The notes under the pieces were generated by a model. The model worked only from the letters and a program-made list of their open reading frames with translations. It did no database searches and was not told the origin of the DNA. This document shows positions 3,488 through 24,842 of a DNA stretch of 26,179 nucleotides, piece by piece. Origin of the DNA: a virus; IMG/VR virus record IMGVR_UViG_3300032579_001180, positions 1-26,179 of that record; one strand, 5' to 3'. Position 1 is the first letter of the stretch, and each line of letters opens with the position of its first letter. A program made the translations under genes and the position numbers.

Positions 3488-3753
3488 AAAGCCACACCGC
3501 CGGGGAAAAAGCCGCCGCCGTGCGGCGCGTGAATGCTGCTGTCGCCAAAGCAAAGCGCCGGAAAATGATCCTGCCGCTGACAGTCGAGATCTGCGACGGC
3601 GAGGGGGACGTGATCGCCCGGGCGACCTACGAGCCAAAGAAGCCGCTCATTTGGATCGGGAGCAGCGAGGCGATCGAGCGGGTCACCGAGGCGGCGGGCA
3701 TCAACTATTTTTCGGCGAAAGCTTCCACCCGGAATTTCGAGACGGCTTTATGA
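3484..3753 (+). CDS. Small hypothetical early protein, GTG start
   Basis: An 89-residue basic protein that starts with GTG overlapping the previous stop (GTGA). Residues 5-28 are Ala/Lys/Arg-rich and helical; the rest looks like a small beta domain (LPLTVEICDGEGDVIARATY, then IWIGSSEAIERVTEAAG). Its last 49 bases overlap, tail to tail, the end of the predicted minus-strand gene at 3705-3980. An ATG at 3750 overlaps its stop and could start the transposase frame. No family recognised. Confidence 0.6.
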   Translation: MKSHTAGEKAAAVRRVNAAVAKAKRRKMILPLTVEICDGEGDVIARATYEPKKPLIWIGSSEAIERVTEAAGINYFSAKASTRNFETAL

Positions 3754-3980
3754 GCCCACAGGAGATCCACCTTCACCCGGTGCTCCAGCCCCGGAAAATC
3801 GATGTAGCACTGCCCGGCGGTGCTGGCCTGGCCTTCGACCATCACCTCCAAGGTGACATCCCGCCCGCAGTCCCGCCGGGAGACGACGACGCCCGGCAGC
3901 CGCTGGCCATCGGGGAACCGGATCGAGCAGGGGGATTCCATGCCGGGAAAAATGCCGGTTTCGGAGAAAAGGGTCAACAT
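3705..3980 (-). CDS. Probable minus-strand small protein hidden under the transposase 5' end
   Basis: A 91-residue frame from ATG at 3980 to TAG at 3705-3707. It reads like a folded beta-rich protein (SPCSIRFPDGQRLPGVVVS, DVTLEVMVEGQ, QCYIDFPGLEHRVKVDLLW). My hand count of position-specific GC over 3750-3980 gives roughly 64/49/82 % for this frame, the pattern of a real gene here, whereas the plus frame gives roughly 82/49/64 %, typical of a shadow. The plus frame there also reads as low-complexity His/Asp/Pro/Gly. If real, it is the only minus-strand gene besides the repressor, a possible moron, and the transposase would start near 3984-4026 instead of 3750. No family recognised. Confidence 0.5.
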   Translation of the reverse strand: MLTLFSETGIFPGMESPCSIRFPDGQRLPGVVVSRRDCGRDVTLEVMVEGQASTAGQCYIDFPGLEHRVKVDLLWAHKAVSKFRVEAFAEK

Positions 3981-5747
3981 TCGATTTCGCCCGCCGCGCA
4001 GGCGAGGCTGGCCGCGATCCGCGCCGTGGAATCGGCGGTTGCGCGGCGAGGGCTGAGCGTGGCGGCGGCGTGCAAGGTCAGCCATGTCCATCGGGCTAAC
4101 TTCGACCGGTGGTCGAAGCGTCTCCGGGAGCGCGGGCCAGAGGGGTTGGAGGACGACTATTCCGAGTGTGGACGGACCGCGCTGGCGATCCCGACCGAGG
4201 CGGAAGTCCAGTTTGCCAGGGAAAAAGTGCTCGTGCTCAACCGGGCGGATGGCGCCGGGAGCATCACGGCCGCCGCGCAGGCGCTGGCCGAGTGGGAGGG
4301 GTGCAGCGAGGAGACCCGCGCCGCGATCCTGAAGCCGAGGGCGAGCAGGCACACGCTCACGCCGACGCTCCGCCGGGCCTTCGCGGTGGAGGAGCAAGTG
4401 ATCCGATACCACCGGACACCCCGCGAGGTCGAGAACAGCCTGGCGAACCGCCGAGGCTGCATGCGGGCTGGCCGGGACGGTGCACGCCTGCGGGCAGGCT
4501 GGCGGCAGAGTTGGGACGACGGATCGATCAATTTTCTCGTGTGCGTGCCCTGGCAGTTGGCCGACGACGTGTGCTCGCGAAAGTTCGGCGTGAAGCTGGG
4601 CCGCTTCCAGCTCCTCATCGGTATCGATGATGCGGTGCCGTATTGCCCCGGATTCGACTTCACGATGCGCCCGCGCCAGAGTTACCGGAGCGAGGACGTG
4701 ATCCGCGCGATGGCGCGCACCTGGGCCGCCACCGGCAAACCCGCCGAGGTCGTGCTGGAGCGCGGCGTGTGGGAGAGCAAGCGGGTGCAGGAGTTCCTCG
4801 CCGCCGCCGGGGTAGCCGTGACCCGCGCCTACCGGCCAAACCACAAGCTCATCGAAAATTATTTCAACGGGCTCTGGACCGCGCTCGGCGACCTGCCCGG
4901 CCAGATCGGGCGGTTCCGCGGCGAGATGGAGGAAAACTCGAAAATCGCCGAGGCCTGCAAATCCGGGCACAAAGACCCGACCAAGTTTTTCCCCAGGCTC
5001 GACGAGGTGATGAACACGCTCGAACACGCGATCACCTTGCGCAACCGAACCCGCACGGAAAGCGACATCTACGGGCAGAGCATTCCGGCGGAGATCTGGG
5101 AAGAGGAAGCCGCAGCGCGCCCCCGCCTCGTCGGCGACTTCTCCCACCACTACCAGGGCGAGGCCAAGGAATGGACCGTTCTGCGCTGCGACAGCGTTGG
5201 CGGCTCAGTGATGAGCCCGTTCGGCGAGAGCATCAAATACTATTTCCAGAGCGAAGGGCTTTGGCGGCACCAGGGCGAGAAGGTGCGCGTGCATTTCGAC
5301 CCATTCGCCCCGGCGGAGGGCGCTACGATCGTCGCGCTCCAAAATTCGCGGCACGCCCGCATCGGCGAGGTCATCGCCCGCAAGGCCGACTGCATCAGCA
5401 ACGCGCCCTCGCTGGTCCGCGACATGAAGGGGTGGGAAATGGATTTCCGTCCCGAGGCCGCCGACCTCGCCCGCCGCCACCGCCGGACCACGGTGCAAGC
5501 GATCCGCTCCGAGACCCGGGCCATCGAGCCAAAAGGAATTGTAGCCCGCACCAGCACCGCCCGCGATGGCCTCGGCAACTTCACAGAAATTTCTCGTGGG
5601 GGGAAAGCAACCGGCGGCGAGGGGGCGGAGGTTTCCGCGCCCCGCCGTCCGGCCGCCGCGGAGCACGAGGGGAACGCGTTCGCGGCCCGCGTGGCCGCCG
5701 ACCCCCGCGCGGCAGACCTCGAAGAATGGGAGAAAGCACACTTTTGA
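3750..5747 (+). CDS. Mu-like phage transposase (A protein), start uncertain
   Basis: Carries out strand transfer in replicative transposition of phage DNA. A HTH near the N-terminus (about 4020-4120, LSVAAACKVSHVHRANFDRW) is followed by a helical DNA-binding region, an RNase H-fold integrase core (about 4500-4900) and a beta-barrel-like C-terminal part (about 5140-5350). Catalytic signature: Asp in the SWDDGSINF stretch (about 4515-4520), then LERGVWES with Glu (4758-4760) where most members have Asp-Asn-Gly, then Glu in KLIENYFNGLW (4854-4856); spacing about 80 and 32 residues fits DDE enzymes. The motif GQIGRFRGEMEE with SGHKDP is shared with the second transposase. ATG 3750 overlaps the previous stop, but the first 78 codons look non-coding, so the true start may be an unusual codon near 3984 or GTG 4026. 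The MuB-like ATPase follows 101 bases downstream. Confidence 0.88.
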   Translation: MSPQEIHLHPVLQPRKIDVALPGGAGLAFDHHLQGDIPPAVPPGDDDARQPLAIGEPDRAGGFHAGKNAGFGEKGQHSISPAAQARLAAIRAVESAVARRGLSVAAACKVSHVHRANFDRWSKRLRERGPEGLEDDYSECGRTALAIPTEAEVQFAREKVLVLNRADGAGSITAAAQALAEWEGCSEETRAAILKPRASRHTLTPTLRRAFAVEEQVIRYHRTPREVENSLANRRGCMRAGRDGARLRAGWRQSWDDGSINFLVCVPWQLADDVCSRKFGVKLGRFQLLIGIDDAVPYCPGFDFTMRPRQSYRSEDVIRAMARTWAATGKPAEVVLERGVWESKRVQEFLAAAGVAVTRAYRPNHKLIENYFNGLWTALGDLPGQIGRFRGEMEENSKIAEACKSGHKDPTKFFPRLDEVMNTLEHAITLRNRTRTESDIYGQSIPAEIWEEEAAARPRLVGDFSHHYQGEAKEWTVLRCDSVGGSVMSPFGESIKYYFQSEGLWRHQGEKVRVHFDPFAPAEGATIVALQNSRHARIGEVIARKADCISNAPSLVRDMKGWEMDFRPEAADLARRHRRTTVQAIRSETRAIEPKGIVARTSTARDGLGNFTEISRGGKATGGEGAEVSAPRRPAAAEHEGNAFAARVAADPRAADLEEWEKAHF

Positions 5748-5848: not shown

Positions 5849-6844
5849 ATGAAAGAAGAAGAAAACGAAGACCTCTTCCGCGAGGAAGTGGCGGCGCTGC
5901 GCGAAGCGGCGATCAGGATCGAAACTTACCGCTCGGCCCAGGGGCTGAGCTTCGGCCAGCTCCGCTCCCGCTACAGCGGGGTCGGCAGCGACCGGCAATA
6001 CAAGCGCATCCTGGCGGGCGAGGCCCCGGCGGGGAGCGCCCCGCACTGGCTGGCGGAATACCAGGCGGTCTGCCGGCTCATCGAGCAGGCCGAGAGCATC
6101 CTGGGCACCGATGACCCCATATACGAGGATTTGAGCCTGCCGCACGCCGCGCGGCTCGCGGTCCGCGACGCGATGAGCACGGACACGCTTCGGCGCCTCG
6201 TCATCATCCAGGCGCCGAGCGGCCAGGGCAAGAGCAGCATCGGCAAGCTGCTCGTCGCGCAATACGGCTCCCGCGTCGTGACGCTGGAGTGCAACGAGAC
6301 CCACAAGGGGAGCGTCTGCGCGTTCCTCGCGGGCCTGCTCGCCGCGCTCGGCGGCACCGCCGACCGCGCCGGGGCCGCCGCCGCGCTCGACCGGGTCATC
6401 GCCCGGCTGCGCGAGAGCCGCCGCACGGTCGTCCTCGACGAGGGCCACCACCTCGGGCCGCAGACGCTCAACATCTTAAAGACGCTCATCAACCGGACCC
6501 CCGGAGAGTTCATCCTCCTCACGATCCCGAGCCTCTGGCGCAAACTCGAACGCGAGACCGCCTACGAGGAGTGCCGCCAGCTCAACAGCAACCGCATGGG
6601 CGAGCGCGTGTGGATGAGCACGCTTCCCGACAGCGACGCGGCCCTCTTCCTGCGACGCCGCCTCGGCTGGGACGCGGCGGCGGCCGCACCGGCCGTGAAG
6701 GCCCTCTCCTCGCTTCCGCCCGACACCCGCACGCTCTCCGCCCTCGCCCTCATGGTCCGCCGCGCGACCCAGCTCTCCCGCGGCGAGCCCGTCACACCGG
6801 AAACATTCGACCAAGCCCGCGAGGCCATCGCCCGCACCCGGTAA
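5849..6844 (+). CDS. MuB-like AAA+ ATPase, transposition target protein
   Basis: A 331-residue protein. Residues 1-75 hold a helical HTH-like N-terminal region (LSFGQLRSRYSGVGSDRQYKRI). The ATPase core has Walker A APSGQGKS (residues 122-129, K128) and Walker B TVVLDEGHH (193-201, D197 and E198), followed by LLTIPSLWRKLE, a sensor-like strand, and a C-terminal helical domain. MuB proteins bind DNA in an ATP-dependent way, pick the target and activate the transposase. It lies directly downstream of the transposase, as B follows A in Mu. The ATG is preceded by the leader AGAAAGAACCAA rather than a strong ribosome-binding site. It is distinct in sequence and length from the second ATPase at 24839. 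Confidence 0.88.
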   Translation: MKEEENEDLFREEVAALREAAIRIETYRSAQGLSFGQLRSRYSGVGSDRQYKRILAGEAPAGSAPHWLAEYQAVCRLIEQAESILGTDDPIYEDLSLPHAARLAVRDAMSTDTLRRLVIIQAPSGQGKSSIGKLLVAQYGSRVVTLECNETHKGSVCAFLAGLLAALGGTADRAGAAAALDRVIARLRESRRTVVLDEGHHLGPQTLNILKTLINRTPGEFILLTIPSLWRKLERETAYEECRQLNSNRMGERVWMSTLPDSDAALFLRRRLGWDAAAAAPAVKALSSLPPDTRTLSALALMVRRATQLSRGEPVTPETFDQAREAIARTR

Positions 6845-6867
6845 TCCCACATTTCACATTCCAAATT

Positions 6868-7422
6868 ATGACAAAAAAACCCCGCATCCGTTCCACCGAA
6901 CAAATCATCGTCACCCGCGAGGAGGCCGAGCTCCTCGTCAACGACATCGCCCTTGCCGAAAACCGCCGCCGCGCCCTGAACGCGGAGATGGATGAAAAAA
7001 TCCTCGCGATCCGCGAGTCCTACACCCCGGCGCTCGACCAGTGCTCCTCAGACATCAAAGCCAAAAGCGTGATCGTCCAGGCGTGGGCCGAGTCCGCTCC
7101 GGAAGAGTTCTCCAAGAAGAAGCACGTCAAATTTTACGCCGGCGCAGTCGGGTTCCGCACCGGGACGCCCAAGCTGAAAACCCTAAGCGGCTGGACCTTC
7201 GCCCGCGTGCTGGAAAAACTCCAGAGCCTCGCCTGGGGAGCGGCATTCGTCCGCGTGAAGAGCGAGGTGGACAAGGAAGGGCTCATCGCCCAGGTCAGCC
7301 AGGGCATCCTCCAGCCGGCCGAGCTCCGCGAGATCGGCGTCAAGGTCGAACAGGATGAAGCATTCTACATCGAGCCCGACCTCACGGTCATCCAGGACAG
7401 GCTCAGCCAGGAGGCCGCATGA
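6868..7422 (+). CDS. gam: Gam-like host-nuclease inhibitor
   Basis: A 184-residue protein with the features of the Mu Gam family: an N-terminal helix (REEAELLVNDIALAENRRR), a coiled-coil-like region to about residue 55, then a beta-rich part (KFYAGAVGFRTGTPKLKTL) and the C-terminal run 'GILQPAELREIGVKVEQDEAFYIEPD' (within residues 150-175). Gam binds double-stranded DNA ends and shields transposing phage DNA from exonucleases, and is related to Ku. It follows the A and B genes, as expected in Mu-like phages. The ATG lies after the leader ACATTTCACATTCCAAATT; its stop overlaps the next start. Confidence 0.85.
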   Translation: MTKKPRIRSTEQIIVTREEAELLVNDIALAENRRRALNAEMDEKILAIRESYTPALDQCSSDIKAKSVIVQAWAESAPEEFSKKKHVKFYAGAVGFRTGTPKLKTLSGWTFARVLEKLQSLAWGAAFVRVKSEVDKEGLIAQVSQGILQPAELREIGVKVEQDEAFYIEPDLTVIQDRLSQEAA

Positions 7423-7514
7423 TCTACACGCCGATCACCGGAGCAGAGATCATCGCCCGGCGCAGCGCGTTGCCGGCCATCGTCGCCTGGCTCCGCGCGA
7501 GGGAGGGGAAATGA
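7419..7514 (+). CDS. Very small ORF coupled to Gam gene
   Basis: A 31-residue ORF that starts with ATG overlapping the Gam stop and ends with TGA overlapping the next ATG at 7511. The peptide (starting MIYTPITGAEIIARRSALPA) is amphipathic and has no known domain. Double coupling argues that it is translated; its size makes function, or even conservation, uncertain. Confidence 0.4.
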   Translation: MIYTPITGAEIIARRSALPAIVAWLRAREGK

Positions 7515-7708
7515 TCGCCTCCTTCCTCAACGCCCCGGCGCCGCTCACTGCTGCAGATGCCCTGACCATGTGCCTGGTGTCTGCGGCCGTTGGCGCCGCC
7601 CTGGTCGTCATTGTCCTGATCCTCTGGATTAAGGTCCGCATCTGGATCGACGCGCGGCAGGCAGAGGAAGAACGCATCGCGGGCCGCACTGTCCTCAAAC
7701 GGGTCTGA
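7511..7708 (+). CDS. Small membrane protein
   Basis: A 65-residue protein with one clear membrane helix: residues 17-42 (ALTMCLVSAAVGAALVVIVL, then ILWIKV), followed by a charged cytoplasmic-type tail (DARQAEEERIAGRTVLKRV). The starting ATG overlaps the stop of the preceding small ORF. A holin-like or exclusion role is possible but nothing specific supports it. Confidence 0.6.
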   Translation: MIASFLNAPAPLTAADALTMCLVSAAVGAALVVIVLILWIKVRIWIDARQAEEERIAGRTVLKRV

Positions 7709-7720
7709 GCAGCAAAGAAT

Positions 7721-7939
7721 ATGAAAGCCCACCTTATCGCAGCAGAAGTCGCCAGAGCTCTGGGACTCCAACCGCTCACGACCGGATATTTACCTTCCGA
7801 ACATTCGATGCTGGAAAACGTCATCCGCGACATGAGCCGGTCCGGCCGGAAATGGGCGCTTGTCCTAGATCACAATGGACTGGTGGAGGTCTGGGTCCGG
7901 AGCCTTGGCCCGCAACCATTGGAGGCTTCCTATGTCTGA
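7721..7939 (+). CDS. Small hypothetical protein
   Basis: A 72-residue protein. It starts with an amphipathic helix (KAHLIAAEVARALGLQPL) and ends in a short beta region (KWALVLDHNGLVEVWVRSL). Its stop overlaps the following gene start by 8 bases (7932-7939), which supports both starts. No family recognised. Confidence 0.6.
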   Translation: MKAHLIAAEVARALGLQPLTTGYLPSEHSMLENVIRDMSRSGRKWALVLDHNGLVEVWVRSLGPQPLEASYV

Positions 7940-8423
7940 GACATTCATCGAGCAGGCCGAACGGCTCAAAAAACTGGTCTCCGCCCTGCATGCCCACTTC
8001 GAGAGCCTCACACAACAGCGCCTCACGCTCAGCTACCAGCGCATGCGCGCCTGGGACGAGCTCATCAAGCGCGGCTACACGGCCGCGGACGTGGCGCTCG
8101 CGATCCGCTGGATCAAGGCCCAGATGGGACGACCCGGATCCGGCTATTCGCCCAGCTCGCTCCAGTTCTCCCGGCTCATCCAGGATGCCGACCTCTTCGA
8201 AGACCGGCTCAACCTCGCCCGGAAGGCCTTTTGCCGCCGGGAGGGCGAGGCTCCGTCCGAACCCTATAATTACGGCTCACACGGAGCCTCGCCCTCCCCT
8301 GCACCGAAAGGCTGGGTTGCCTGGATCACCGAAAACTATCCCAATGCCTCAATCCCGAAATTCTTCTGCGATCTCCCGGAGTCTGTTCGGGAGGAATGCA
8401 GAGCATCCCTGCAAAAGCCATGA
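7932..8423 (+). CDS. Phage protein with replication-accessory-like helical domain, interrupted by REP-like insert
   Basis: A 163-residue protein. Residues 1-95 are helical, with the pattern RMRAWDELIKRGYTAADVAL and 'IRWIKAQMGRPGSGYSPSSLQFSRLI' (residues 56-83), similar to small phage replication-accessory domains, though I cannot name the family. Residues about 102-122 (REGEAPSEPYNYGSHGASPS) are the translation of a perfect 18-bp inverted repeat and look like an in-frame REP insertion. Beyond it the original protein seems to resume (GWVAWITENYPNASIPKFF). Its stop overlaps the next ATG. Confidence 0.65.
   Translation: MSETFIEQAERLKKLVSALHAHFESLTQQRLTLSYQRMRAWDELIKRGYTAADVALAIRWIKAQMGRPGSGYSPSSLQFSRLIQDADLFEDRLNLARKAFCRREGEAPSEPYNYGSHGASPSPAPKGWVAWITENYPNASIPKFFCDLPESVREECRASLQKP
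8239..8298. repeat. REP-like inverted repeat inserted in a coding region
   Basis: GGGAGGGCGAGGCTCCGT (8239-8256) is exactly complementary to ACGGAGCCTCGCCCTCCC (8281-8298), with a 24-base loop. It encodes the peptide EGEAPSEP...GASPSP, a signature of translated repetitive palindromes that I associate with Verrucomicrobiota-like genomes. The reading frame is preserved across it. Confidence 0.75.
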
Positions 8424-8659
8424 GCGCACGCACTGGACGCGACCGTGTAGCCATCGAGCGGTTGAGGTGGATCGCCGGCAGGATCCGCGACCGGCTCCCG
8501 CTCAACGCCAGGATCGTTGCCAGCGAGTTCCAGATCAGCTCGAAGACCGGGATCCGCGACATCAATTACATGCGCCGAAACCTCGGCTGGCAGCTCCGCT
8601 GGAACGGTCCGGCCCACTCCTTTGTTTCATCAGGCCAGCAACCCGAAGCCCTCCTATGA
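8420..8659 (+). CDS. Small HTH protein (DeoR/WYL-type HTH)
   Basis: A 79-residue protein starting at the ATG that overlaps the previous stop. Residues 10-60 carry a winged-helix-like pattern: RLRWIAGRIRDRLPLNARIV, then ASEFQISSKTGIRDINYMRR, where the SSKTGIRDI stretch fits a recognition helix as in DeoR- or WYL-type regulators. A wing (LGWQLRWN) follows. It is probably a phage regulator of middle or late genes; the target is unknown. Confidence 0.6.
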   Translation: MSARTGRDRVAIERLRWIAGRIRDRLPLNARIVASEFQISSKTGIRDINYMRRNLGWQLRWNGPAHSFVSSGQQPEALL

Positions 8660-9171
8660 GCATTCCAAATTCCACATTGCCCATTTCGCATTCGCGGCAA
8701 AGCCGCGCAAACTACGCTCCCGACATGGCTTGGGCTCCGCTCGATCGCGAGCAGCGCCAGAGCCTCGCCATGCTTTCGCGTAAAGCCTGGCTAAAATGGG
8801 GCCGTGGCGAGGCGTTCGACCCATGGCGCCATGCGCAGTGCATCAAGGCGGTGGGACGCCGGATCACCGAGGCCGGCCAGCGCGACTTCCTACCGCTCCG
8901 CGCCCACTTCCTCGACCTGGCCGGTCGGCCCGAGGTCGCCATGAACGTCCTTCTCCAGGCCGAAAGCGAGCCATACCGCATCGCGCTCCACCGGCTCCAG
9001 ATCGAATGCAACAAGCGCCGGCTCCCGCTCGCCTATCCCGAGGCCATCTGCCGCCGGCAATACCGCTGCGGCCTATCCGAGGCCTCCGCACAACAGGTCT
9101 GGCGGCTCGTCTTCACCGTCCGCAACCGCAGATCAGAATCCAATAAACCAGCCTTTGGCTTCAAGATATGA
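8656..9171 (+). CDS. Conserved-looking phage protein, function unknown
   Basis: A 171-residue basic, helical protein. The ATG at 8656 overlaps the previous stop, but the first 22 residues are encoded by the 'CATTCCAAATTCC' type leader repeat and a GCGGC-AAA-GCCGC hairpin, so ATG 8725 (MAWAPLDREQRQSL) may be the true start. The body contains WLKWGRGEAFDPWRHAQCIK and a C-terminal part with YRIALHRLQIECNKRRLPL. It lies where Mu has its small middle genes. Function not recognised. Confidence 0.6.
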   Translation: MSIPNSTLPISHSRQSRANYAPDMAWAPLDREQRQSLAMLSRKAWLKWGRGEAFDPWRHAQCIKAVGRRITEAGQRDFLPLRAHFLDLAGRPEVAMNVLLQAESEPYRIALHRLQIECNKRRLPLAYPEAICRRQYRCGLSEASAQQVWRLVFTVRNRRSESNKPAFGFKI

Positions 9172-9488
9172 GCCCCATCGATTACCGCAACGCCACCTGG
9201 GACGGCATCCAGAACAAGATCGTCGGAAACCGCCGCGCCGTTCTGGACGCGCTCCGCGAGCATGGCCCATGCACCACGCGGGAGCTCGCAGCCGCCATGG
9301 ACTGGGACATCCTCAACGTCCGCCCCCGTGTCACAGAACTCGTCCAGATCGGATTCGTTGTGGACGCGACATCCGACGAGACCCCGGCCCGCGAAGGGAC
9401 TTACATGGCCTTCACCGACACCGAGGCCTTCGACTTTTTCCGCCGCCAGAAATTCCAATCCACCAACCCGCAGCTCCAGCTCCTATGA
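9168..9488 (+). CDS. Winged-helix DNA-binding protein
   Basis: A 106-residue protein. Residues 20-75 are a winged helix: NRRAVLDALREHGPCTTREL, then AAAMDWDILNVRPRVTELV, then the wing strand IGFVVDATSDE. The pattern resembles MarR- or DprA-type HTH modules. It starts at an ATG overlapping the previous stop and is followed by another coupled gene. It is probably a phage regulator. Confidence 0.65.
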   Translation: MSPIDYRNATWDGIQNKIVGNRRAVLDALREHGPCTTRELAAAMDWDILNVRPRVTELVQIGFVVDATSDETPAREGTYMAFTDTEAFDFFRRQKFQSTNPQLQLL

Positions 9489-10055: not shown

Positions 10056-10186
10056 GCGCCACATTCAACGCGCTGGTCAGCGATCCTGAGCCATCGGTGT
10101 CCGCCTCGAAAGTTGCGAATCCGAAGGATTCGCTGGACCAGCCTGTTGTGCTGTGGATGGGCTCGAAAAACCAACCGCCGCGATAG
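10052..10186 (+). CDS. Doubtful small ORF overlapping attC-like site
   Basis: A 44-residue ORF that starts with ATG overlapping the previous stop and is almost entirely made of the attC-like folded site at 10063-10151. Its peptide (starting MSATFNALVSDPEPSVSASK) has no family. It is listed because of the ATGA coupling; it may be an accident of the recombination site. Confidence 0.25.
   Translation: MSATFNALVSDPEPSVSASKVANPKDSLDQPVVLWMGSKNQPPR
10063..10151 (-). other. attC-like recombination site 1
   Basis: Read on the minus strand: simple site GCACAAC, arm GGCTGGTCCAGCGAATCC, variable stem, arm GGATCGCTGACCAGC, simple site GTTGAAT (plus-strand ATTCAAC, 10063-10069), which fits the GTTRRRY consensus exactly. 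The arms (10066-10086 and 10126-10148) pair almost throughout, and the first arm carries two extra unpaired bases, as the longer L'' arm of real attC sites does. A perfect 8-bp hairpin (10115-10133) lies inside. The orientation points away from the IntI-like gene at 11346, as in a true integron. Confidence 0.6.
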
Positions 10187-10200
10187 CGGCCTAAAATATA

Positions 10201-10559
10201 TGAATCCAATCGAACTAATCAAAGCCGAGCGCGAGCGGCAGACCCTCGCGCACGGATACAACTCAACCCACGACGACGAGCACACAGACGGGGAACTCTC
10301 GGCAGCCGCTGCCAGCTATGCCCTCTTCGAGGCTTATCAGGTAGTGGCAGAACGATACACTCCGACGAGGACGATAGATAAAGAAGCGCCGAAACATTGG
10401 CCGTGGACTGCGGAATGCTGGCGACCAGCGGACGACAAAATCAGAAATCTCGTCAAGGCCGGGGCGCTGATCGTGGCGGAGATACATCGCCTTCAACGCG
10501 CCGGAGCGGAAGCTCCAGCCCATCCACAGCACAACGATCAAGAGGAGCCACGGCCATGA
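10201..10559 (+). CDS. Conserved phage protein of unknown function
   Basis: A 119-residue protein with a pattern I recognise from many phages: ERERQTLAHGYNSTHDDEH, 'DGELSAAAASYALFEAYQ', then PKHWPWTAECWRPADDKIRN and 'LVKAGALIVAEIHRL'. The HDDEH and WPW-W-P-DD-R-LVKAGALI elements are the family's conserved points. Function is not known; the Asp/His-rich N-terminus could bind metal. GC content is lower than that of neighbouring early genes. Its stop overlaps the next ATG. Confidence 0.7.
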
Positions 10560-10915
10560 CTAAAGAGCAGGAAGACAATCTCCTAGACGATTCGCGTCAC
10601 GAAGACCCGCCGTTGGCTCGCTCGGCTGGTTCGACAATTCTTATGGAAAACAAAACACACATCGAAATGCTGGCCGCTGATAACGCGAGAATGCGGTCCG
10701 CGCTTCGCCTCATCACAGATACCCGGTGGGGCTATGACTGCGCGGTTCAAATGGCAAAGACAGCACTCGCCAACGAATCTTCATACGCGCAACTGCGGGA
10801 CATGGTGCAACGCGCTCGCGGGCTGATCGAAAACGGGAAATTCGATTCTCCATCCGAGGCCGATGACTGGATCACCGACGCCGTGGTAATTCTGTCCAAG
10901 GAGAGCAAGCCATGA
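10556..10915 (+). CDS. Small hypothetical coiled-coil-like protein
   Basis: A 119-residue acidic protein starting at an ATG that overlaps the previous stop. The first 29 residues are low in structure; from residue 30 (MENKTHIEMLAADNARMRSA) it looks helical, perhaps coiled coil, and a second start at ATG 10643 is possible. Ends DDWITDAVVILSKESKP and overlaps the zinc-ribbon ORF by ATGA. No family. Confidence 0.55.
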   Translation: MTKEQEDNLLDDSRHEDPPLARSAGSTILMENKTHIEMLAADNARMRSALRLITDTRWGYDCAVQMAKTALANESSYAQLRDMVQRARGLIENGKFDSPSEADDWITDAVVILSKESKP

Positions 10916-11055
10916 TCTGCGAGAAATGCGGAGAGGAATACAAGGCTGCGTATTTCGAGCGGTGCCCCGTTTGCGGTCACGAGGAGATCAGCGAACCCGA
11001 TGATATTTTGTCGAACGCAAAGATCAGCGGCCCCGCGACGAAAACCACTCTATGA
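10912..11055 (+). CDS. Small zinc-ribbon protein
   Basis: A 47-residue protein with two Cys pairs, CEKC near the start (C3, C6) and CPVC (C18, C21), followed by His, the layout of a zinc ribbon. Overlaps the previous stop. Such small ribbons are common in phages and may bind nucleic acid or protein. Its stop overlaps ATG 11052, just before the second attC-like site. Confidence 0.6.
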   Translation: MICEKCGEEYKAAYFERCPVCGHEEISEPDDILSNAKISGPATKTTL

Positions 11056-11342
11056 AAACCGTTACGAAATGCGCGGCAGCGAAAGTGAACCCCGGTAGGG
11101 GTTCGCTGGAGCGCCTTGTTGGGCGGATATTGCACAGGATCAAAAACCCGTTTTGGAGGTATCGCATCGCGGCGGATCACTGGCGATCCGTCTGGATAGC
11201 GTGGGGATGGCAGCCGCTCGGCCTGCATCGCATCCAGTGTGAGGGATGGCACTGGTGGTTGTCTCTCGGACTCGTCTCCGTAGTCCACTCGCACAATCTG
11301 GGCCAGCCCAACAGTGTAATCAACAAACCAGGTTCGGATTAA
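11052..11342 (+). CDS. Doubtful ORF running through attC-like site 2
   Basis: A 96-residue ORF coupled to the zinc-ribbon gene by ATGA. Its first 25 codons are the attC-like site at 11061-11124; the remainder is Trp-rich (DHWRSVWIAWGWQPLG and 'CEGWHWWLSLGLV') and could be a real small membrane-like protein. It ends three bases before the integrase ATG. In a true integron this stretch (11125-11345) would hold attI; I see no defined attI structure by eye. Confidence 0.3.
   Translation: MKTVTKCAAAKVNPGRGSLERLVGRILHRIKNPFWRYRIAADHWRSVWIAWGWQPLGLHRIQCEGWHWWLSLGLVSVVHSHNLGQPNSVINKPGSD
11061..11124 (-). other. attC-like recombination site 2
   Basis: On the minus strand: simple site GCCCAAC (plus GTTGGGC, 11118-11124, exact GTTRRRY), then AAGGCGCTCCAGCG, a perfect 7-bp stem GAACCCC/GGGGTTC with 4-base loop (11087-11104), then TTTCGCTGCCGCGC. 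This start translates as PNKALQRT, a peptide I associate with translated attC sites. The far simple site is degenerate (around 11061-11067), so the site may be decayed. The layout is like site 1 and has the same orientation. Confidence 0.55.
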
Positions 11343-11345
11343 TTT

Positions 11346-12323
11346 ATGGGACTCATTGACCAATTCCGTGTCCAGGCGAGCTGCCGGGATCTCCAGAAGC
11401 GCACGATTGCCACTTACGAATTTTGGCTTCGGAAGTTTTACAATGAGTCTGGCCGCCAACCGGCATCTGCATGGAACGGGGAAATGGTCTCGCGGTGGCT
11501 GCATGAGCTGGATCGCAACAACTATTCCTTTGTCTCCAGAAAGCAGGCGCTGTGCGCATTGGTCTTTGTTTTCAAGCACGTCCTCAAAGCGGACCTTCCG
11601 AACCTAGGACTTCCGAAGCCGCCTCGGGAAAAGTTCCATCTGCGCACGATTCCCAGCCGAGAAGAGCTCGCACGGATCTTCGCGGGCCTCAAAGGCCAGC
11701 CCCGGCTAATGGCCGCGCTCATGTATGGGGCAGGGCTCCGCGTCGAGGAAACGTGCAAGCTGCGCGTTCAAGATCTCGACTTCGACGCGCAGACAATCCG
11801 CATCCACGGTGGAAAGGGCGACAAAGATCGCCTGTGCCTCCTGCCCGCATTGATCGCGCCGCACCTCCGCCGCCAGATCGCCTGGCGTGCCGCCTTGCAC
11901 GATCAAGACCTGGCCGCCGGCGCGGGCATCGTGGAACTGCCCGGCCGCCTCGCGCAGAAATATCGCAACGCCGCCCGCGAGCTCCGCTGGCAGTTCCTTT
12001 TTCCGAGCCAGTGCATCCGCGACCAGCGCCGCTGGCATGCGGTCCCCGAGGGTGTCCAAAAATCCATGCGGGCGGCCGTTCGCGCAGCTGGTGTCACCAA
12101 GCGCGTAACGCCACACACGCTCCGCCATGCCTTCGCGACCCACGCGCTCCACGCCGGCAACGACATCCGCACAATCCAGGATCTCATGGGGCACGAGCAT
12201 GTGGAGACCACGATGATCTACCTCCACGCCGACTTCGCCCGAGGAGTGTCCCCGCTGGATCTCGCGCCGCCGACGAGATCGAGGCCACTCCTCAATTCCG
12301 CATTACAAATTCAGCATTCCTAA
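11346..12323 (+). CDS. Integron-integrase-like tyrosine recombinase (IntI family)
   Basis: A 325-residue site-specific recombinase. N-terminal SAM-like DNA-binding domain (about residues 1-90), then a catalytic domain with the full set R132 (GAGLRVEE), K157 (HGGKGDKDR), H257 and R260 (HTLRH), H283 (LMGHEH) and Y292 (TTMIYLH). Residues about 182-222 (LHDQDLAAGAGIVELPGRLA, then QKYRNAARELRWQFLFPS) match the extra segment that separates IntI from XerC/XerD and phage integrases. It should act on folded attC sites, and two attC-like sites lie to its left in the orientation expected of an integron. It ends 8 bases before the MuF gene, in a position where Mu-like phages carry terminase and portal. 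Its last 10 residues are encoded by the ATTCCGCATTACAAATT leader. Confidence 0.88.
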   Translation: MGLIDQFRVQASCRDLQKRTIATYEFWLRKFYNESGRQPASAWNGEMVSRWLHELDRNNYSFVSRKQALCALVFVFKHVLKADLPNLGLPKPPREKFHLRTIPSREELARIFAGLKGQPRLMAALMYGAGLRVEETCKLRVQDLDFDAQTIRIHGGKGDKDRLCLLPALIAPHLRRQIAWRAALHDQDLAAGAGIVELPGRLAQKYRNAARELRWQFLFPSQCIRDQRRWHAVPEGVQKSMRAAVRAAGVTKRVTPHTLRHAFATHALHAGNDIRTIQDLMGHEHVETTMIYLHADFARGVSPLDLAPPTRSRPLLNSALQIQHS

Positions 12324-12331
12324 TTTTCCCA
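12293..12331 (+). repeat. Degenerate CATTCC/AAATT leader repeat before head gene
   Basis: Sequence AATTCCGCATTACAAATTC followed by AGCATTCCTAATTTTCCCA sits just before the MuF start. Similar leaders occur at 6846-6867 (before Gam), 8660-8695, 15666-15699 and 16262-16301 (before capsid genes). None has a clear Shine-Dalgarno sequence. They may be a shared translation leader or an intergenic repeat family. Confidence 0.45.
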
Positions 12332-13873
12332 ATGAAATACCTTCTCGAACCAACTCCCCACGAAGAGGCCATTGACTTCATCGCCTCGAAGCCTGTCGTT
12401 TCACGCGAGGTGTTCCAGGAACTGCTCCCCGAGCTGAAGGCCCGGGCGTTCACGATCAGCGGGGTCACGGCTTTCGATGTCCTCCAGCGCGTGCGGGACG
12501 AGGTGGCGACCGTTCCCGCCGGCGCTCGGTGGGACGACGCGAAGAAGAAGATCGTCGAGGAAATCCACCCGTTCCTCGCCGACCCGGAGGATCCGGACAA
12601 CACCGATGCGGCCGAGCGCCGGGCGGAGACGCTGCTCAGGACCCATGGCTTCCAGGCTTACGGTGCGGCCCGCTACCGGAACCAGGCCGCGCAGAAGGAC
12701 ATCTTCCCGTATTGCCAGTATGTCCACAACTACGATGCCCAGCCGCGCCCCTCGCACGTCGCGCTTCACGGGCTGATCTTCCCCTTCGACAGCGAATTTG
12801 TTCAAACCCACCAGTGCCCATGGGACTGGAATTGCAAATGCGGATGGACTCCGCTCAGCGAAGATGACGCGCGGGAGTTCCGCGAGAAGGACGCGGACCG
12901 GGAGCCGGACCACCGCGAGGTCATCGAGGGGGCGCAGCTCAAGCACGTCGAGACAACCGGCCACCTCGTGCGCGGGGTGAACCAGATATTCGATGTCCGC
13001 ACCCCGGCAGAAAAAGGCGAGCCGGGAGCCTTTACCTGGGACCCGCGCGACCTGCGCATCCCGCTCGACAAGCTCAAGGAACGCTACGAGCCACACGTCT
13101 GGGCAGCGTTCGAGAAATGGGCGCGGAACAACCAGATCCCGGAGACCGGCACCTCGATCTTCGGCTGGCTCAGCGGCGAGAAACTTGTCGCGGAGACCCT
13201 GGCTTCGACCGCCCGGGCGGCGTCGAGGCTCCCCGGCGTGATGACGCCGGTGCCCGTGCCGCCTCGGGTTGACCCGGTGGGCGGAAAACTCCGGATCCCC
13301 GAGTCTCATCCCGATGCCGCCGCGCTCTCCGCCACGATGACCGTGGTGGACAGCGTGCATGACGATGGTGGCCTCAACTCCATCCCGCTCCTCGCCAGCC
13401 GTGGCACGCGTGTTGTCGGGGAGTTCATCTGGAACGAAATCACCGGCAAGGCCACCAGCATCACGATCAGCAGCAAGGGGCCTCACCCGGAGCTGACCTT
13501 GCTCCACGAGATCGGCCACTGGGTCGAACTCGGGATAATGAGTCCAGGCGATAGCGCCCGCATCACCGCCGCACTGGAAAAAACCGTTACGGCCAAAAAG
13601 ATACGCAGCATGATCCGCACGGGGAAATCTCGTCCGGGGATCAGGAGCGACCTTTTTGCAGGCGACATTGCCGACCTGCGCGACATGATTAAGCCAGGCG
13701 AAATGCTGGCCCGCGCCTACGCCCAGTGGATCGCCCGCAAAAGCGGCCACTCGAGGCTGCTCGCCCAGATCGCCGCAGAAAACCCAAAATATCACGGCGT
13801 GCGTTTTTTCAGCGAGCAAGAAGCCGCGCAAATTGATAAGCTGTTCAGCGAAGCATTGGGGGGAAAGCCATGA
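12332..13873 (+). CDS. MuF-type head morphogenesis protein fused to HExxH peptidase-like domain
   Basis: A 513-residue protein. Residues 1-250 match the Mu gpF/phage head morphogenesis family: HEEAIDFIASKPVVSREVFQ, then 'AERRAETLLRTHGFQAYGAARY', 'RPSHVALHGLIFP' and CPWDWNCKCGW (from C162). gpF is a minor capsid protein beside the portal. Residues about 320-513 form a second domain with SITISSKGPHPELTLLHEIG, where HEIGH (392-396) is a zincin metallopeptidase motif, and a later E-x-x-A-R-A-Y-A-Q-W-I helix that may supply the third metal ligand. MuF proteins are known carriers of C-terminal toxin/effector domains. The small gene at 13870 may be its partner. Start ATG 12332 follows the leader repeat. 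Confidence 0.82.
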   Translation: MKYLLEPTPHEEAIDFIASKPVVSREVFQELLPELKARAFTISGVTAFDVLQRVRDEVATVPAGARWDDAKKKIVEEIHPFLADPEDPDNTDAAERRAETLLRTHGFQAYGAARYRNQAAQKDIFPYCQYVHNYDAQPRPSHVALHGLIFPFDSEFVQTHQCPWDWNCKCGWTPLSEDDAREFREKDADREPDHREVIEGAQLKHVETTGHLVRGVNQIFDVRTPAEKGEPGAFTWDPRDLRIPLDKLKERYEPHVWAAFEKWARNNQIPETGTSIFGWLSGEKLVAETLASTARAASRLPGVMTPVPVPPRVDPVGGKLRIPESHPDAAALSATMTVVDSVHDDGGLNSIPLLASRGTRVVGEFIWNEITGKATSITISSKGPHPELTLLHEIGHWVELGIMSPGDSARITAALEKTVTAKKIRSMIRTGKSRPGIRSDLFAGDIADLRDMIKPGEMLARAYAQWIARKSGHSRLLAQIAAENPKYHGVRFFSEQEAAQIDKLFSEALGGKP

Positions 13874-15665: not shown

Positions 15666-15699
15666 AAATCCCACATCCAACATTCAAAATTAACTAACC
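15666..15699 (+). repeat. A-rich leader before decoration gene
   Basis: AATCCCACATCCAACATTC followed by AAAATTAACTAACC directly before ATG 15700. It belongs to the same leader family as 12293-12331 and 16262-16301, with no ribosome-binding site visible. Confidence 0.4.
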
Positions 15700-16261: not shown

Positions 16262-16301
16262 CCTCAAATTCCGCATTCCTAATTCCTAATTAACCAAAAC
16301 C
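16262..16301 (+). repeat. CATTCCTAATTCC-type leader before major capsid gene
   Basis: CTCAAATTCCGCATTCCTAA followed by TTCCTAATTAACCAAAACC lies in the 41-base gap before ATG 16302. It has tandem CATTCCTAATTCC units and an AACCAAAACC tail like that before the internal scaffold start at 15175. Confidence 0.45.
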
Positions 16302-19032: not shown

Positions 19033-19262
19033 CCCATGAATACGGCTGGGCTCTCTGCTTCATCCAGGACTCACTGCCGCTCGCCCAGGCCTGCGCACTC
19101 TACAGCGCGATCGCGGCCCGCTACGACCTTACCCCGCGCGGCCCTACATACTTCGATCAGGACTTCCTCAAGCGACTGGAGGCACTTCAGAAGGATGAAG
19201 GACGAAGTAAAAAGTATGAAGTGGGCCGCAAGGCGGCCAAATCCCGCGCGAAGCGCGGCTGA
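18547..19262 (+). CDS. Tail assembly chaperone, -1 frameshift long form (GT-like)
   Basis: A fusion of 142 codons of the short form with 96 residues of the -1 frame, by slippage at CCCTTTA (18966-18972). The second part reads FSGAPEPGNGLGWFLTLTDC, 'LAHEYGWALCFIQDSLPLAQACALYSAIAARYDL', a helical T domain, and ends in a basic tail (GRKAAKSRAKRG). In lambda and many other phages the G and GT forms help tape measure protein during tail assembly. The end is 39 bases before the tape measure ATG. The -1 frame has no good start of its own near the overlap, which supports shifting. Confidence 0.8.
18966..19006 (+). promoter_or_regulatory. Programmed -1 frameshift signal
   Basis: Slippery heptamer CCCTTTA (in phase C CCT TTA) at 18966-18972, a 6-base spacer, and a stem CACCCGAG (18979-18986) with CTCGGGTG (18999-19006). 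Inside the loop CCG-GCAA-CGG adds three pairs closed by a GNRA tetraloop. Phase, spacing and stem are all as in known -1 shift sites. Confidence 0.85.
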
Positions 19263-19301
19263 TCTCAACTTCATCCTTCATCCTTCATCCTTTTTTTTCC
19301 C

Positions 19302-21890: not shown

Positions 21891-22381
21891 GCAAGTATTT
21901 CCGGAGATCCCTCGTTCTTCAGTGCGGAGACGACTCTAGGTTTTGGGAAACACTGCGGAGAGCCGATATCGTTTTTCGAGCAATTTCCCTTCAATACACA
22001 GGGGAGGCCAAGAGTGAATGGCTCGCCGCCAAGCTCCTTCAAACAAGCTCCTCAACTCTCAACCGATTCCACAATGCTTTTCTCAAGCATGGGATCGCTG
22101 GGCTTATCCATAAAGAGATGGGCTCCCCCGCAGTTTGCAAGAGGCTGAATATTTCTGATTCGCAACTCGCGGACATGGTTGCCGCAAGCGCGGATCGCTC
22201 GGGGCTGCGGAGAATCCGTGCATTTCTGGCATCTTCGGACTGTCCTCCAGAACTGCGCGAAAAACTCAAAGGCAAAAATCTCGCCCCGATTGCCAAGCGG
22301 GTAAATAGGATCATCCAGGCGCAAAAACTTCTATCGTCGGGATTGTCGATTGTCCCCACGCCTGCCGCAAACTTTTCCTGA
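21872..22381 (+). CDS. HTH protein opening the second transposition module
   Basis: A 169-residue basic protein. Residues 44-80 (EAKSEWLAAKLLQTSSSTLN, then RFHNAFLKHGIAGLIHK) are a helix-turn-helix like those at the N-terminus of Mu-like transposases; the first transposase has a similar W-x-K-R...G-x-x-GL element within its own chain. A helical C-terminal part follows. It lies one base upstream of the second transposase gene, so it may be a separate DNA-binding subunit of that transposase. Third-position GC is lower than in the phage genes before it. Confidence 0.65.
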   Translation: MPKGILSKYFRRSLVLQCGDDSRFWETLRRADIVFRAISLQYTGEAKSEWLAAKLLQTSSSTLNRFHNAFLKHGIAGLIHKEMGSPAVCKRLNISDSQLADMVAASADRSGLRRIRAFLASSDCPPELREKLKGKNLAPIAKRVNRIIQAQKLLSSGLSIVPTPAANFS

Positions 22382-22382
22382 G

Positions 22383-24842
22383 ATGCTTCCTTCCGTCGCG
22401 ACATTCACCGCTTTTGAGCTTTCCAATGCTCTCGGAACCTATCCGCAGGCGGTCCGCAATGCGCTCGCGAAGGTTCCGCATCAACTCCGCCTTGTTCGCG
22501 GAAAGGAATCGGCATCTTGGGCCCTGGATAGTCTGCCCTCCGCGATGAAGGCGAAGCTTGCGCGTTCCGCTTCCGATATGACGGGCTACCGTGGAATCCA
22601 TCACTTCATTCTGATTTGCCAGGCCAAGGAGAAATTTGCCCCCTCTATTCCTGTTGCGAATATGCCGGCTCCGGCGATTGAAAAAGCCGCGCATCTCAGA
22701 TCGTGCCTTGCACCGATCCTGAAACGGGCGGAGGAATTTTCCATCCGCGAGATGGCGAGGCAGGCCAATCTTCTCTTGGCCAATGACGGGCTTTTTTCTT
22801 TGGAGAGCAACCGAACCACGCGCCGTAGAATAGAGCGGATTCTTGCCCGCGACGGCGGCCATGCCGACTTTGACCGGCTCGAACTCTATGCGGAGGAGTT
22901 TTGCCAGCACCGCCAGGAGCGAAGTGTTCCCGAAAAATCCGACATTCATTGCCCGGCCGTGGAAATCACGCTTCAAACGCTCGACCCGAAAGACCCCAGT
23001 TTCAAAACGCGGGTGTTTGCCGCCGCTGTTGAGGATGTCAAATTGCTCGCCCAGACTCATGGCTCCCGCAAAGCAAAAGCGGCAGTCATGGATGCGCTTG
23101 AATCCAGCGGGATCAGACTTGCAGCAAGCCGCGATTGCCTTCGGAAGAAAATGGATGGCATCGCCGCGCGTGTCGTTGCCGGCGCGAGCGGAGAGCACTT
23201 GCTCGCTCACCATGGCCAGGGCAGATCCGGACGAAAACCAAAATTTTCCCTGTCTGAAGAAGAGCGGACACGTCTGACTTTTCACCGGCTACAACGCGGC
23301 GGCAGCCTTGCCAGGGGAATCGAAGACTTCGCCCGCGATCCGATCTGCCGGCCAGAAACACGGATGTTGATCCATGCTGAGATGGATACAGCCGCACGGG
23401 AACGCCGCATCCCAAGGTGGCCAAAGAATCTTCACCACCTTACCAGGCCATCAAATGAATTGGCCGCCCATTTCTTTGGGCCAAAGCACCGGGCCAAGTT
23501 GGAAATGACTTCACGTCGGGGGATGTTCCATATCGATGATCGAGGCCAGGAGTGCCCAACTCGCCCAAACGACATTTGGGAGTCCGACGATATGAGCCTC
23601 AATGAGCCTTTCCGATACACAGATCCGGAAACTGGAGAGTTCCGACCTGGCCGCCAGATATTGGCGACGCTCGACGTGGCCAGCGCGGCCTGGCTAGCCG
23701 CTCATCCTATCGGAAGAGATCGGGATGCATACCGGGCAGAGGACATCGCCGACCATATCAGGAACACCGTAATTCAACACGGCTTGCCGCTGTGCTGGAG
23801 GATAGAGCGCGGACGGTGGGACAATGACTTTATTTCAGGAACCAAACTGAAAGACGGTTCCCGGTGGGGCGGGTTGGATGAGATCATCAACATCCTATCC
23901 ATGAGCACGTCAAATGGAAAGGCGACGATCGAGACTCGCTTCAATCCCTTGCAGCGTGAAATCTCCACAATGAGCCTTTCGATTGGGCGGCATCGCGGCG
24001 AACGCGAGGCCGCAACGAAGCTTTTGACTTCTGCCCAAAATGGAAATTCTGATTCACAGAGAAAATTCTGGACAATCAAGGAAGCCGCAGAGGGCACAGC
24101 AAAAGCTATGGAGCGTCAGAACCAGCGGCCGGCCATGCGACGTGCTTGCGGGCGTCAGGCTCAGGTTCCCGCCGAGTTGTATCGGAACGCCGGGAAGCGT
24201 GAATGCCCGAAAGACCAACGCTGGAGGTTTCTGCCAATTAAGCGGGACGCTACCGTCCGAGGGGATTGCGTCGAGGTATCTGTGAAAAACTACCCCAGGA
24301 GTTTTCGTTTCCGCGTGAACGGGGTGAAAAATTCGATTTATCTGCATCGCGGGGAAACCGTGCTGATCGCATTTCACCCGGCCCGCCCAGAGGAGGGATG
24401 TTGGATTTTTGACGGAGAGCGAACACAAAGCCCGGCGAGGAATTTTGATTCCAAGTTTGGCCAATTTCTCCTCATGGCAGAATATGAGCCTGATGTTCCT
24501 CAGTTCAGCATGGATCGTGGCGCGGCAAGGCCCGAGGGAAGCTACGGCAAAAAGAAAGCCCGTGCTGCCATGGTTTCGCAGTTCCGGGGCATTACCCCAG
24601 CGGGAACCAGGTCTGTTTCAATTTCAGAATCGCGGGATGGTTTGGGTTCGTCGTTCCGCCATGCGGAAAATTCAGATCCGGCTTTTGAGGTCACAGGCAC
24701 TGAACGCCACCGCAGAGAGAGAGATGCCGACAGGTTGATTCAGAAGGCCAGGAGAGAACGCGAAGAATCTGCATTTGAGGGCATTGACGAAATGGAGCGC
24801 GAGTTTTTCAGAAACAATCCTTCGATGGCGATCCCAAGATGA
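22383..24842 (+). CDS. Second Mu-like transposase, divergent
   Basis: An 819-residue protein. N-terminal domain with HTH (FTAFELSNALGTYPQAVRNA, about residues 8-27) like MuA's DNA-binding end domain, then helical regions, then a catalytic core: Asp pair in WESDDMSLNEPF (402-403), RIERGRW with Glu475, and TIETRF with Glu517. The motif IGRHRGEREAATKLL parallels GRFRGE of the first transposase. Beta domain at about 600-700, then a charged C-terminal region likely to contact the ATPase. ATG 22383 is one base after the HTH gene; a TTG at 22350 is also in frame. Its stop overlaps the ATPase ATG. Codon use is less GC-rich than upstream phage genes, suggesting a different origin. Confidence 0.85.
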   Translation: MLPSVATFTAFELSNALGTYPQAVRNALAKVPHQLRLVRGKESASWALDSLPSAMKAKLARSASDMTGYRGIHHFILICQAKEKFAPSIPVANMPAPAIEKAAHLRSCLAPILKRAEEFSIREMARQANLLLANDGLFSLESNRTTRRRIERILARDGGHADFDRLELYAEEFCQHRQERSVPEKSDIHCPAVEITLQTLDPKDPSFKTRVFAAAVEDVKLLAQTHGSRKAKAAVMDALESSGIRLAASRDCLRKKMDGIAARVVAGASGEHLLAHHGQGRSGRKPKFSLSEEERTRLTFHRLQRGGSLARGIEDFARDPICRPETRMLIHAEMDTAARERRIPRWPKNLHHLTRPSNELAAHFFGPKHRAKLEMTSRRGMFHIDDRGQECPTRPNDIWESDDMSLNEPFRYTDPETGEFRPGRQILATLDVASAAWLAAHPIGRDRDAYRAEDIADHIRNTVIQHGLPLCWRIERGRWDNDFISGTKLKDGSRWGGLDEIINILSMSTSNGKATIETRFNPLQREISTMSLSIGRHRGEREAATKLLTSAQNGNSDSQRKFWTIKEAAEGTAKAMERQNQRPAMRRACGRQAQVPAELYRNAGKRECPKDQRWRFLPIKRDATVRGDCVEVSVKNYPRSFRFRVNGVKNSIYLHRGETVLIAFHPARPEEGCWIFDGERTQSPARNFDSKFGQFLLMAEYEPDVPQFSMDRGAARPEGSYGKKKARAAMVSQFRGITPAGTRSVSISESRDGLGSSFRHAENSDPAFEVTGTERHRRERDADRLIQKARREREESAFEGIDEMEREFFRNNPSMAIPR

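Follow-up and report, generated by a model that had tools for sequence, protein, structure and literature searches.

The window, the whole stretch of DNA analysed here, is a complete IMG/VR record of 26,179 bases. Its main genes are all on the plus strand and comprise, in order, a DDE transposase, an ATPase, small early genes, an integron integrase gene (intI), and the MuF, neck, protease, major head, connector and tape measure genes. The features referred to below are as follows.

3651..5747, plus strand: DDE transposase (phage A gene), matching phrog_310 (2.7e-8)
5849..6844, plus strand: transposition ATPase (phage B gene), matching phrog_296 (1.3e-13) and AAA_22 (1.4e-13)
10063..10151, plus strand: attC_a (ATTCAAC...GTTGTGC), left end of the array; arm energy -20 kcal/mol, the lowest in the contig; found by the chain walk and ranked 1 with model R1 (E 0.081)
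10200..10559, plus strand: cassette 1 ORF, ending ...HPQHNDQEEPRP and a stop inside attC_b, the stop overlapping the next ATG (ATGA)
10529..10635, plus strand: attC_b (GCACAAC...GTTCGAC), with an extrahelical T; found by the chain walk and with model R1 (10581-10635, E 2.6)
10556..10915, plus strand: cassette 2 ORF A, starting inside attC_b
10912..11055, plus strand: cassette 2 ORF B, small and zinc-ribbon-like (CxxC...CxxC), ending inside attC_c with an ATGA overlap
11010..11124, plus strand: attC_c (GTCGAAC...GTTGGGC); found by the chain walk and with model R1 (11078-11124, E 0.55, rank 3 in the window)
11052..11342, plus strand: cassette 3 ORF, starting inside attC_c and reading through attI (...GQPNSVINKPGSD and a stop)
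11306..11345, plus strand: attI, made up of the box GCCCAAC and about 33 nt that are conserved among 12 phage contigs (AACAGTGTAATCAACAAACCAGGTTCGGATTAA)
11346..12323, plus strand: intI, an integron integrase (tyrosine recombinase) of 325 aa, supported by TIGR02249, PDB 2A3V and a phage IntI clade with SH-aLRT 100
12332..13873, plus strand: MuF-like minor head protein, matching phrog_220 (8.5e-36)

With its DDE transposase, ATPase and MuF-type head genes, the contig qualifies as a transposable (Mu-like) phage, and it shares with such phages the order of DDE transposase, AAA ATPase, MuF, protease and major head protein. The protease, major head protein and tape measure were also confirmed. The original prediction of a "Mu-like transposable prophage" was right about the transposable phage, whereas prophage status is not shown, the contig coming from an uncultured virus and having no flanking host DNA. 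At the end of the contig lie the genes of another transposase, different from the first (22350-24842), and of a further AAA ATPase (24839-26179, phrog_296/TniB-like). The contig G001, 99.99% identical elsewhere, stops at window position 20864. The stretch from 22350 to 26179 is either a second transposable element adjoining the phage or the product of an assembly joining two.

The product of the ORF at 11346 to 12323, which was found as first described, is a genuine integron integrase. It scored 278.3 bits with the NCBIfam model TIGR02249 "integron integrase", above the cut-off of 265, and fell below the cut-offs of both the XerC and XerD models (122.7 vs 335.15 and 119.8 vs 329.6 bits), by which it is not a member of XerC/XerD. 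The closest solved structure was IntI4 of V. cholerae (PDB 2A3V, E 2.8e-51). The predicted catalytic residues R132, K157, H257, R260, H283 and Y292 are all present and unchanged across five phage homologues, and the predicted IntI-specific insert between patches II and III (LHDQDLAAGAGIVELPGRLAQKY...RELRWQFLFPS) is present as well and aligns with that of IntI4 in 2A3V. The protein has the three features by which IntI was judged, namely the catalytic set R-K-H-R-H-Y, the specific insert and placement with IntI in the tree. The 8-base gap to MuF was also confirmed, with the intI stop codon at 12321-12323 and the MuF ATG at 12332.

The attI abuts the intI start codon and also provides the stop codon of the last cassette ORF. 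A conserved element lies directly 5' of each phage intI and starts AACAG, after four variable bases; in G006 and G007 the box is GCCTAAC, the complement of which is the canonical GTTAGGC. An attI beside intI, as expected of an integron, is thus recognised by a crossover of the G/TTRRRY type at the start of intI, its attI function being inferred. The DNA similarity between the window and the related contigs G002 and G003 starts at 11308-11310, at the attI crossover, and stops with intI. A DNA pattern for the window-type attI found four contigs only in IMG/VR, every one with this intI. A second attI pattern returned four known contigs and 11 further matches, apparently by chance, and was discarded. 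G002 has attI and intI, but the region before its attI contained no reciprocal box and no intact array, and its array was treated as empty or decayed.

Upstream of attI, three cassettes were delimited by a chain walk, in which the start of each cassette is the exact complement of its end box (the 7-bp R-box) and the arms are complementary. GCCCAAC in attI (11306) pairs with GTTGGGC (11118), GTCGAAC (11010) with GTTCGAC (10629) and GCACAAC (10529) with GTTGTGC (10145), and the R-boxes are reciprocal in 3/3. Each partner box occurs once or twice on the plus strand in 26 kb, with one copy at the expected place. Since R-box reciprocity was a condition of the walk, its weight depends on the null rate; when about 6,200 other start boxes were tried, counting both strands, chains of at least three outside the arrays arose 4 times. 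The automatic walk recovered 3, 4, 3 and 3 attC sites in G000, G003, G004 and G006, five consecutive sites in G005 and 4 sites in L145. Other phage contigs have arrays or single sites, and the integron property of cassettes bounded by reciprocal R-boxes is met. The attC-like sites originally noted are accordingly real and belong to an array; the coordinates given for the feature hold for the gene itself, but the whole feature reaches upstream to about 10063. When RYYYAAC...GTTRRRY was searched for directly and the sites were folded over their full length, the criteria proved too strict and the arrays were recovered only partly, the remainder being recovered with relaxed arm pairing. The two ends of cassette 1 (10145-10166 and 10514-10535) are inverted over 22 nt (95%), far beyond the 7-bp R-box.

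A covariance model (R1) was built from 23 phage sites, with the sites of the window left out. Covariation was 0.332, compared with 0.157 +/- 0.017 in shuffles, and a T was invariant at the main bulge position. Because the training sites were picked by arm complementarity, the covariation inside them is partly circular. The model matched a held-out phage site before intI (L143 120-179, 5.7e-6) and 32 attC sites of Lacipirellula, Lysobacter, a gammaproteobacterium and Shewanella phage M16-3 (best, 7.5e-7), 31 of them on the same strand relative to intI as the phage sites, indicating that the orientation of the phage attC sites is standard. The sites have the paired arms, R-boxes and extrahelical bases required of attC, although those of the window are weak when scored one by one (E 0.081, 0.55 and 2.6), so that its array is supported chiefly by the reciprocal boxes and by its relatives. 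It is scarcely conceivable that the hairpins are only terminators or regulatory repeats followed by chance by an unrelated recombinase. Intergenic DNA often contains strong inverted repeats, and the window sites are individually weak, but terminators would have neither R-boxes pairing across the intervening gene nor bulges in constant places, and bacterial attC sites would not be matched by a model derived from terminators.

The attC orientation being standard, it is the ORFs that are inverted, and each cassette consists of attC first and ORF second. In 14 of 19 phage cassettes the longest ORF was on the plus strand, pointing toward attI and intI as the phage operon does, whereas in control integrons it was on the minus strand, away from attI, in 28 of 33 cassettes; the annotated cassette genes of M16-3 all point away from attI. 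The usual but non-defining trait of cassette ORFs directed away from attI and read from Pc is therefore not met in the phages. This reduces the likeness to ordinary integrons but not the membership, the defining parts being intI, attI and attC.

Many phage cassette ORFs start within their own attC and continue across the next R-box, and many end in an ATGA overlap with the next start. Across 29 boxes, AAC was a codon of the longest frame in 21 (one such ORF being doubtful), four had a stop (TAA) in the box, one was read by a short ORF in a different frame, and three had no long ORF. By simple arithmetic, the probability of 21 of 22 falling in one frame at random is near 1e-9. Long plus-strand ORFs crossing boxes in G003 (23057-23806) and G004 (37196-37366) are doubtful and were given no weight. 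The homologous methyltransferase cassettes of L141 and L145 (47% identical) have a common core up to the box and tails that differ, supplied either by attI (NSVLDKPGSH and a stop) or by the next attC (NAPAHRPAREQE and a stop). The inverted ORFs and the fixed frame through the R-boxes, the most surprising parts of the system, had not been foreseen.

All protein matches in the phage cassettes were on the strand of the inverted ORFs and included N6_N4 methyltransferases (1.3e-16 and 1.5e-17), HTH_3 (2.8e-8) and methyltransferase domains. In the window, the cassette 1 ORF had no match in Pfam, and ORF B of cassette 2 had weak, sub-threshold matches to DZR/HypA zinc domains. Overall, the phage cassettes carry DNA methyltransferases, HTH and zinc-ribbon proteins, a PAPS-reductase-like protein and many unknowns, a cargo which suggests exchangeable anti-host functions, the anti-host role itself being an inference. 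PAPS-reductase-like cassettes that are 26% identical occur in the arrays of two different phages (L030 5003-5578 and L145 8182-9063).

Relatives of the window IntI in viral contigs were the near-identical G001 and eleven further proteins with 53 to 84% identity. In a tree of 81 tyrosine recombinases, twelve distinct phage IntIs, including that of the window, formed one clade with SH-aLRT 100 and a stem length of 1.37, placed inside IntI with Xer separate and without a cellular member. Branching with XerC/D or with ordinary phage integrases would have refuted the original prediction and was not observed. This was a quick tree, and the exact sister group of the phage clade is uncertain. The best cellular IntIs were 41 to 47% identical to the phage IntIs (GTDB contigs), and none above 47% was found in the 84,980 genomes scanned; the patterns were derived from the phage proteins, and some cellular IntIs may have been missed. 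The 294 Planctomycetota genomes contained only ordinary IntIs, reaching at most 276 bits compared with 411 to 528 for the phage members, and no host was assigned. Within the collections searched, the IntI lineage is confined to phage contigs. IntI-like proteins of other viral contigs (L024-L028) had no convincing attI-linked array, apart from one site in L025. In one contig of the clade (G018, L143), a second tyrosine recombinase, about 28% identical, is encoded on the minus strand at 1503-1982, convergent to the phage intI.

In 11 further phage contigs the attI-intI module recurs, in most cases together with an attC array. Nine of the 12 phage IntI contigs encode the transposase and AAA ATPase, and no transposase was seen in G007, G018 and G020. 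In most of these nine, intI closes the early region several kilobases 3' of the A and B genes, with one or two small genes behind it; G006 has divergent head genes, and in L142 the transposase is downstream rather than upstream. Another transposable phage, G019, has an IntI only 53% identical to that of the window and MuF about 56 bp after intI, the same order as in the window. The claim that intI is built into the phage gene order is thus supported by its recurrence at the end of the early region, 3' of the transposase and ATPase, in further transposable phages, and absence of the gene from all related prophages, which would have refuted the original prediction, is contradicted by these phages, among them G019. 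An alternative is that IntI serves phage integration (e.g., at host attC sites) or genome resolution, with the arrays as by-products. Tyrosine recombinases are the usual phage integrases, and in several contigs intI lies within about 0.5 to 1.4 kb of a contig end. Such a role is nevertheless very improbable given the transposase and ATPase in nine of the contigs, the position of attI upstream of intI with an attached array, and the reciprocity of multiple cassettes. What is observed is a true IntI lineage, with attI at the start codon and attC-bounded cassettes upstream, located where the early region of a transposable phage has its distal end.

The IntI of the window shares 84% identity with the IntIs of G002 and G003, against only about 27 to 33% for the transposases, indicating that the intI module moves between phages. 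The sister IntI to the phage clade (support, 87) was found in two contractile-tailed phages, L030, which is part of a deltaproteobacterial MAG, and the viral contig L023, which both encode terminase, portal, major head/protease and tail sheath and have intI between terminase and portal. Their flanks are 73 to 76% identical, but the stretch from terminase to just before intI is unrelated, with non-homologous arrays. In L030, this stretch contains attC sites found both by the model and by the walk, and its cassette genes are in the direction of intI. This comparison is the best evidence of cassette exchange, although the recombination itself is inferred. The array of the window is represented by two assemblies, G000 and G001, which do not differ over its length. 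A search of other viral contigs for the MuF and cassette 2 of the window returned only the near-identical G001, and shuffling is therefore not demonstrated for this phage itself. In G003 (L004 10979-11220), about 240 nt between intI and the next gene are absent in G002 and have TGATATG at both ends.

Integrons are regarded as bacterial (and archaeal) platforms that are occasionally carried by phages. The window shares with bacterial chromosomal (sedentary) and mobile integrons an IntI with the insert, attI at the start of intI, attC sites with extrahelical bases, reciprocal R-boxes and the attC strand relative to intI. It differs in that the integron is set in the phage gene order, with phage ORFs directed toward intI, a fixed frame through the R-box and no need of an outward cassette promoter. 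As every defining part (intI, attI, attC and reciprocal cassettes) is integron-like, the system is classed within integrons and not as a separate kind. Integrons or CALINs have been reported in phages p16 and p42 of V. anguillarum, P1 L-II, Shewanella phage M16-3, TJE1, P12002L and PH101, the record comprising CALINs and integrons of host type or class 1 (Qi et al. 2023, PMC9892861). The integron parts in phage genomes and the DNA methyltransferase cassettes are common to those systems and the present one. Their IntIs are host-type (that of M16-3 is 95.3% identical to IntI of S. oneidensis, and its cassettes have the standard orientation), whereas the IntI of the window belongs to a separate phage clade recurring across phage types.

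That the window merely carries an ordinary chromosomal integron recently captured by the phage, as in the Vibrio, Shewanella and P1 cases, is disfavoured and considered unlikely. The integrase-bearing integrons described earlier in phages fit this picture (PMC9892861), and the mobility of the module would be compatible with capture. A captured integron would be expected to have an IntI near a cellular one, which, with patterns from phage proteins only, was not found; the twelve phage IntIs instead form one long-stemmed clade, the module has the same position in the gene order of divergent phages, and the cassette orientation is opposite to the bacterial one. A phage shuffling cassettes with its own IntI had been proposed as new. 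This does not apply to integron-carrying phages as such, which have been reported with host-derived passengers (PMC9892861), but it stands for a phage-owned lineage with inverted, phase-locked cassettes, which is undescribed as far as the searches go; the open-access literature that was searched yielded no transposable phage in which an integron is resident.

Virus Rctr41k (KX853513) is similar in having an IntI-like protein (34%), annotated xerD, in the phage early region, and five attC-like sites. It differs in that the array is downstream of intI, with the bulges on the other arm and hence an ordinary cassette orientation, and in that its protein falls outside the phage IntI clade. In this locus (L110, 4680-9434), the five reciprocal sites lie at 6641-9434 after the intI-like gene, apparently an unreported phage integron.

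Taken together, the window very likely represents a phage-resident integron by which early genes are swapped and expressed as a coupled operon, recombination being inferred. The order, orientation and frame of its parts are read directly from the DNA; the steps that follow are proposed. The early promoter would transcribe A, B, the cassettes and intI as a single message, a co-transcription inferred from layout alone. IntI would bind folded single-stranded attC, for which the plus strand here would be the recombinogenic "bottom" strand. Recombination of attC with attI between AA and C of the R-box would insert cassettes beside intI, and cassettes could be lost or swapped; such capture is likewise inferred. 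Replicative transposition, with many phage copies and branched DNA per cell, may be a good source of single-stranded attC and of partner copies. Each cassette would provide an attC, often with a start codon, and then an ORF, usually in a fixed frame through the R-box, with its stop in the next attC or in attI. Any cassette order could then give a translationally coupled operon read from the phage promoter, so that the usual Pc promoter would not be needed; this coupling, too, is deduced only from the arrangement of the genes.

A phage lineage thus appears to own an integron at a recurrent genome position, and the polarity and frame of its cassettes fit operon expression. It is probable, with less confidence than for the window itself, that phages have evolved their own type of integron and cassette pool, in which backwards, phase-locked cassettes gain an in-frame tail and form a coupled operon in any order, and that it serves for the exchange of early or anti-host genes in two or more phage types, namely transposable phages and those contractile-tailed phages whose array lies between terminase and portal. 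If this is true, it would be a dedicated phage system for the exchange of accessory genes, which would explain hypervariable early regions, and a way of expressing shuffled cassettes without a cassette promoter. There would also be a cassette pool specific to phages; many of its genes have no known function, and they may act against host defences.

The window also contains degenerate intergenic repeats of the form ATTCC..ATTC at 6843-6874, 8662-8693, 12287-12332, 15667-15692 and 16267-16298, of which the one at 12287-12332 takes in the last part of intI and the gap that separates it from MuF. A further repeat pair, built on CTTCATCC, lies at 19191-19292. The intergenic repeats raise no more than a suspicion that the host belongs to the Verrucomicrobiota.
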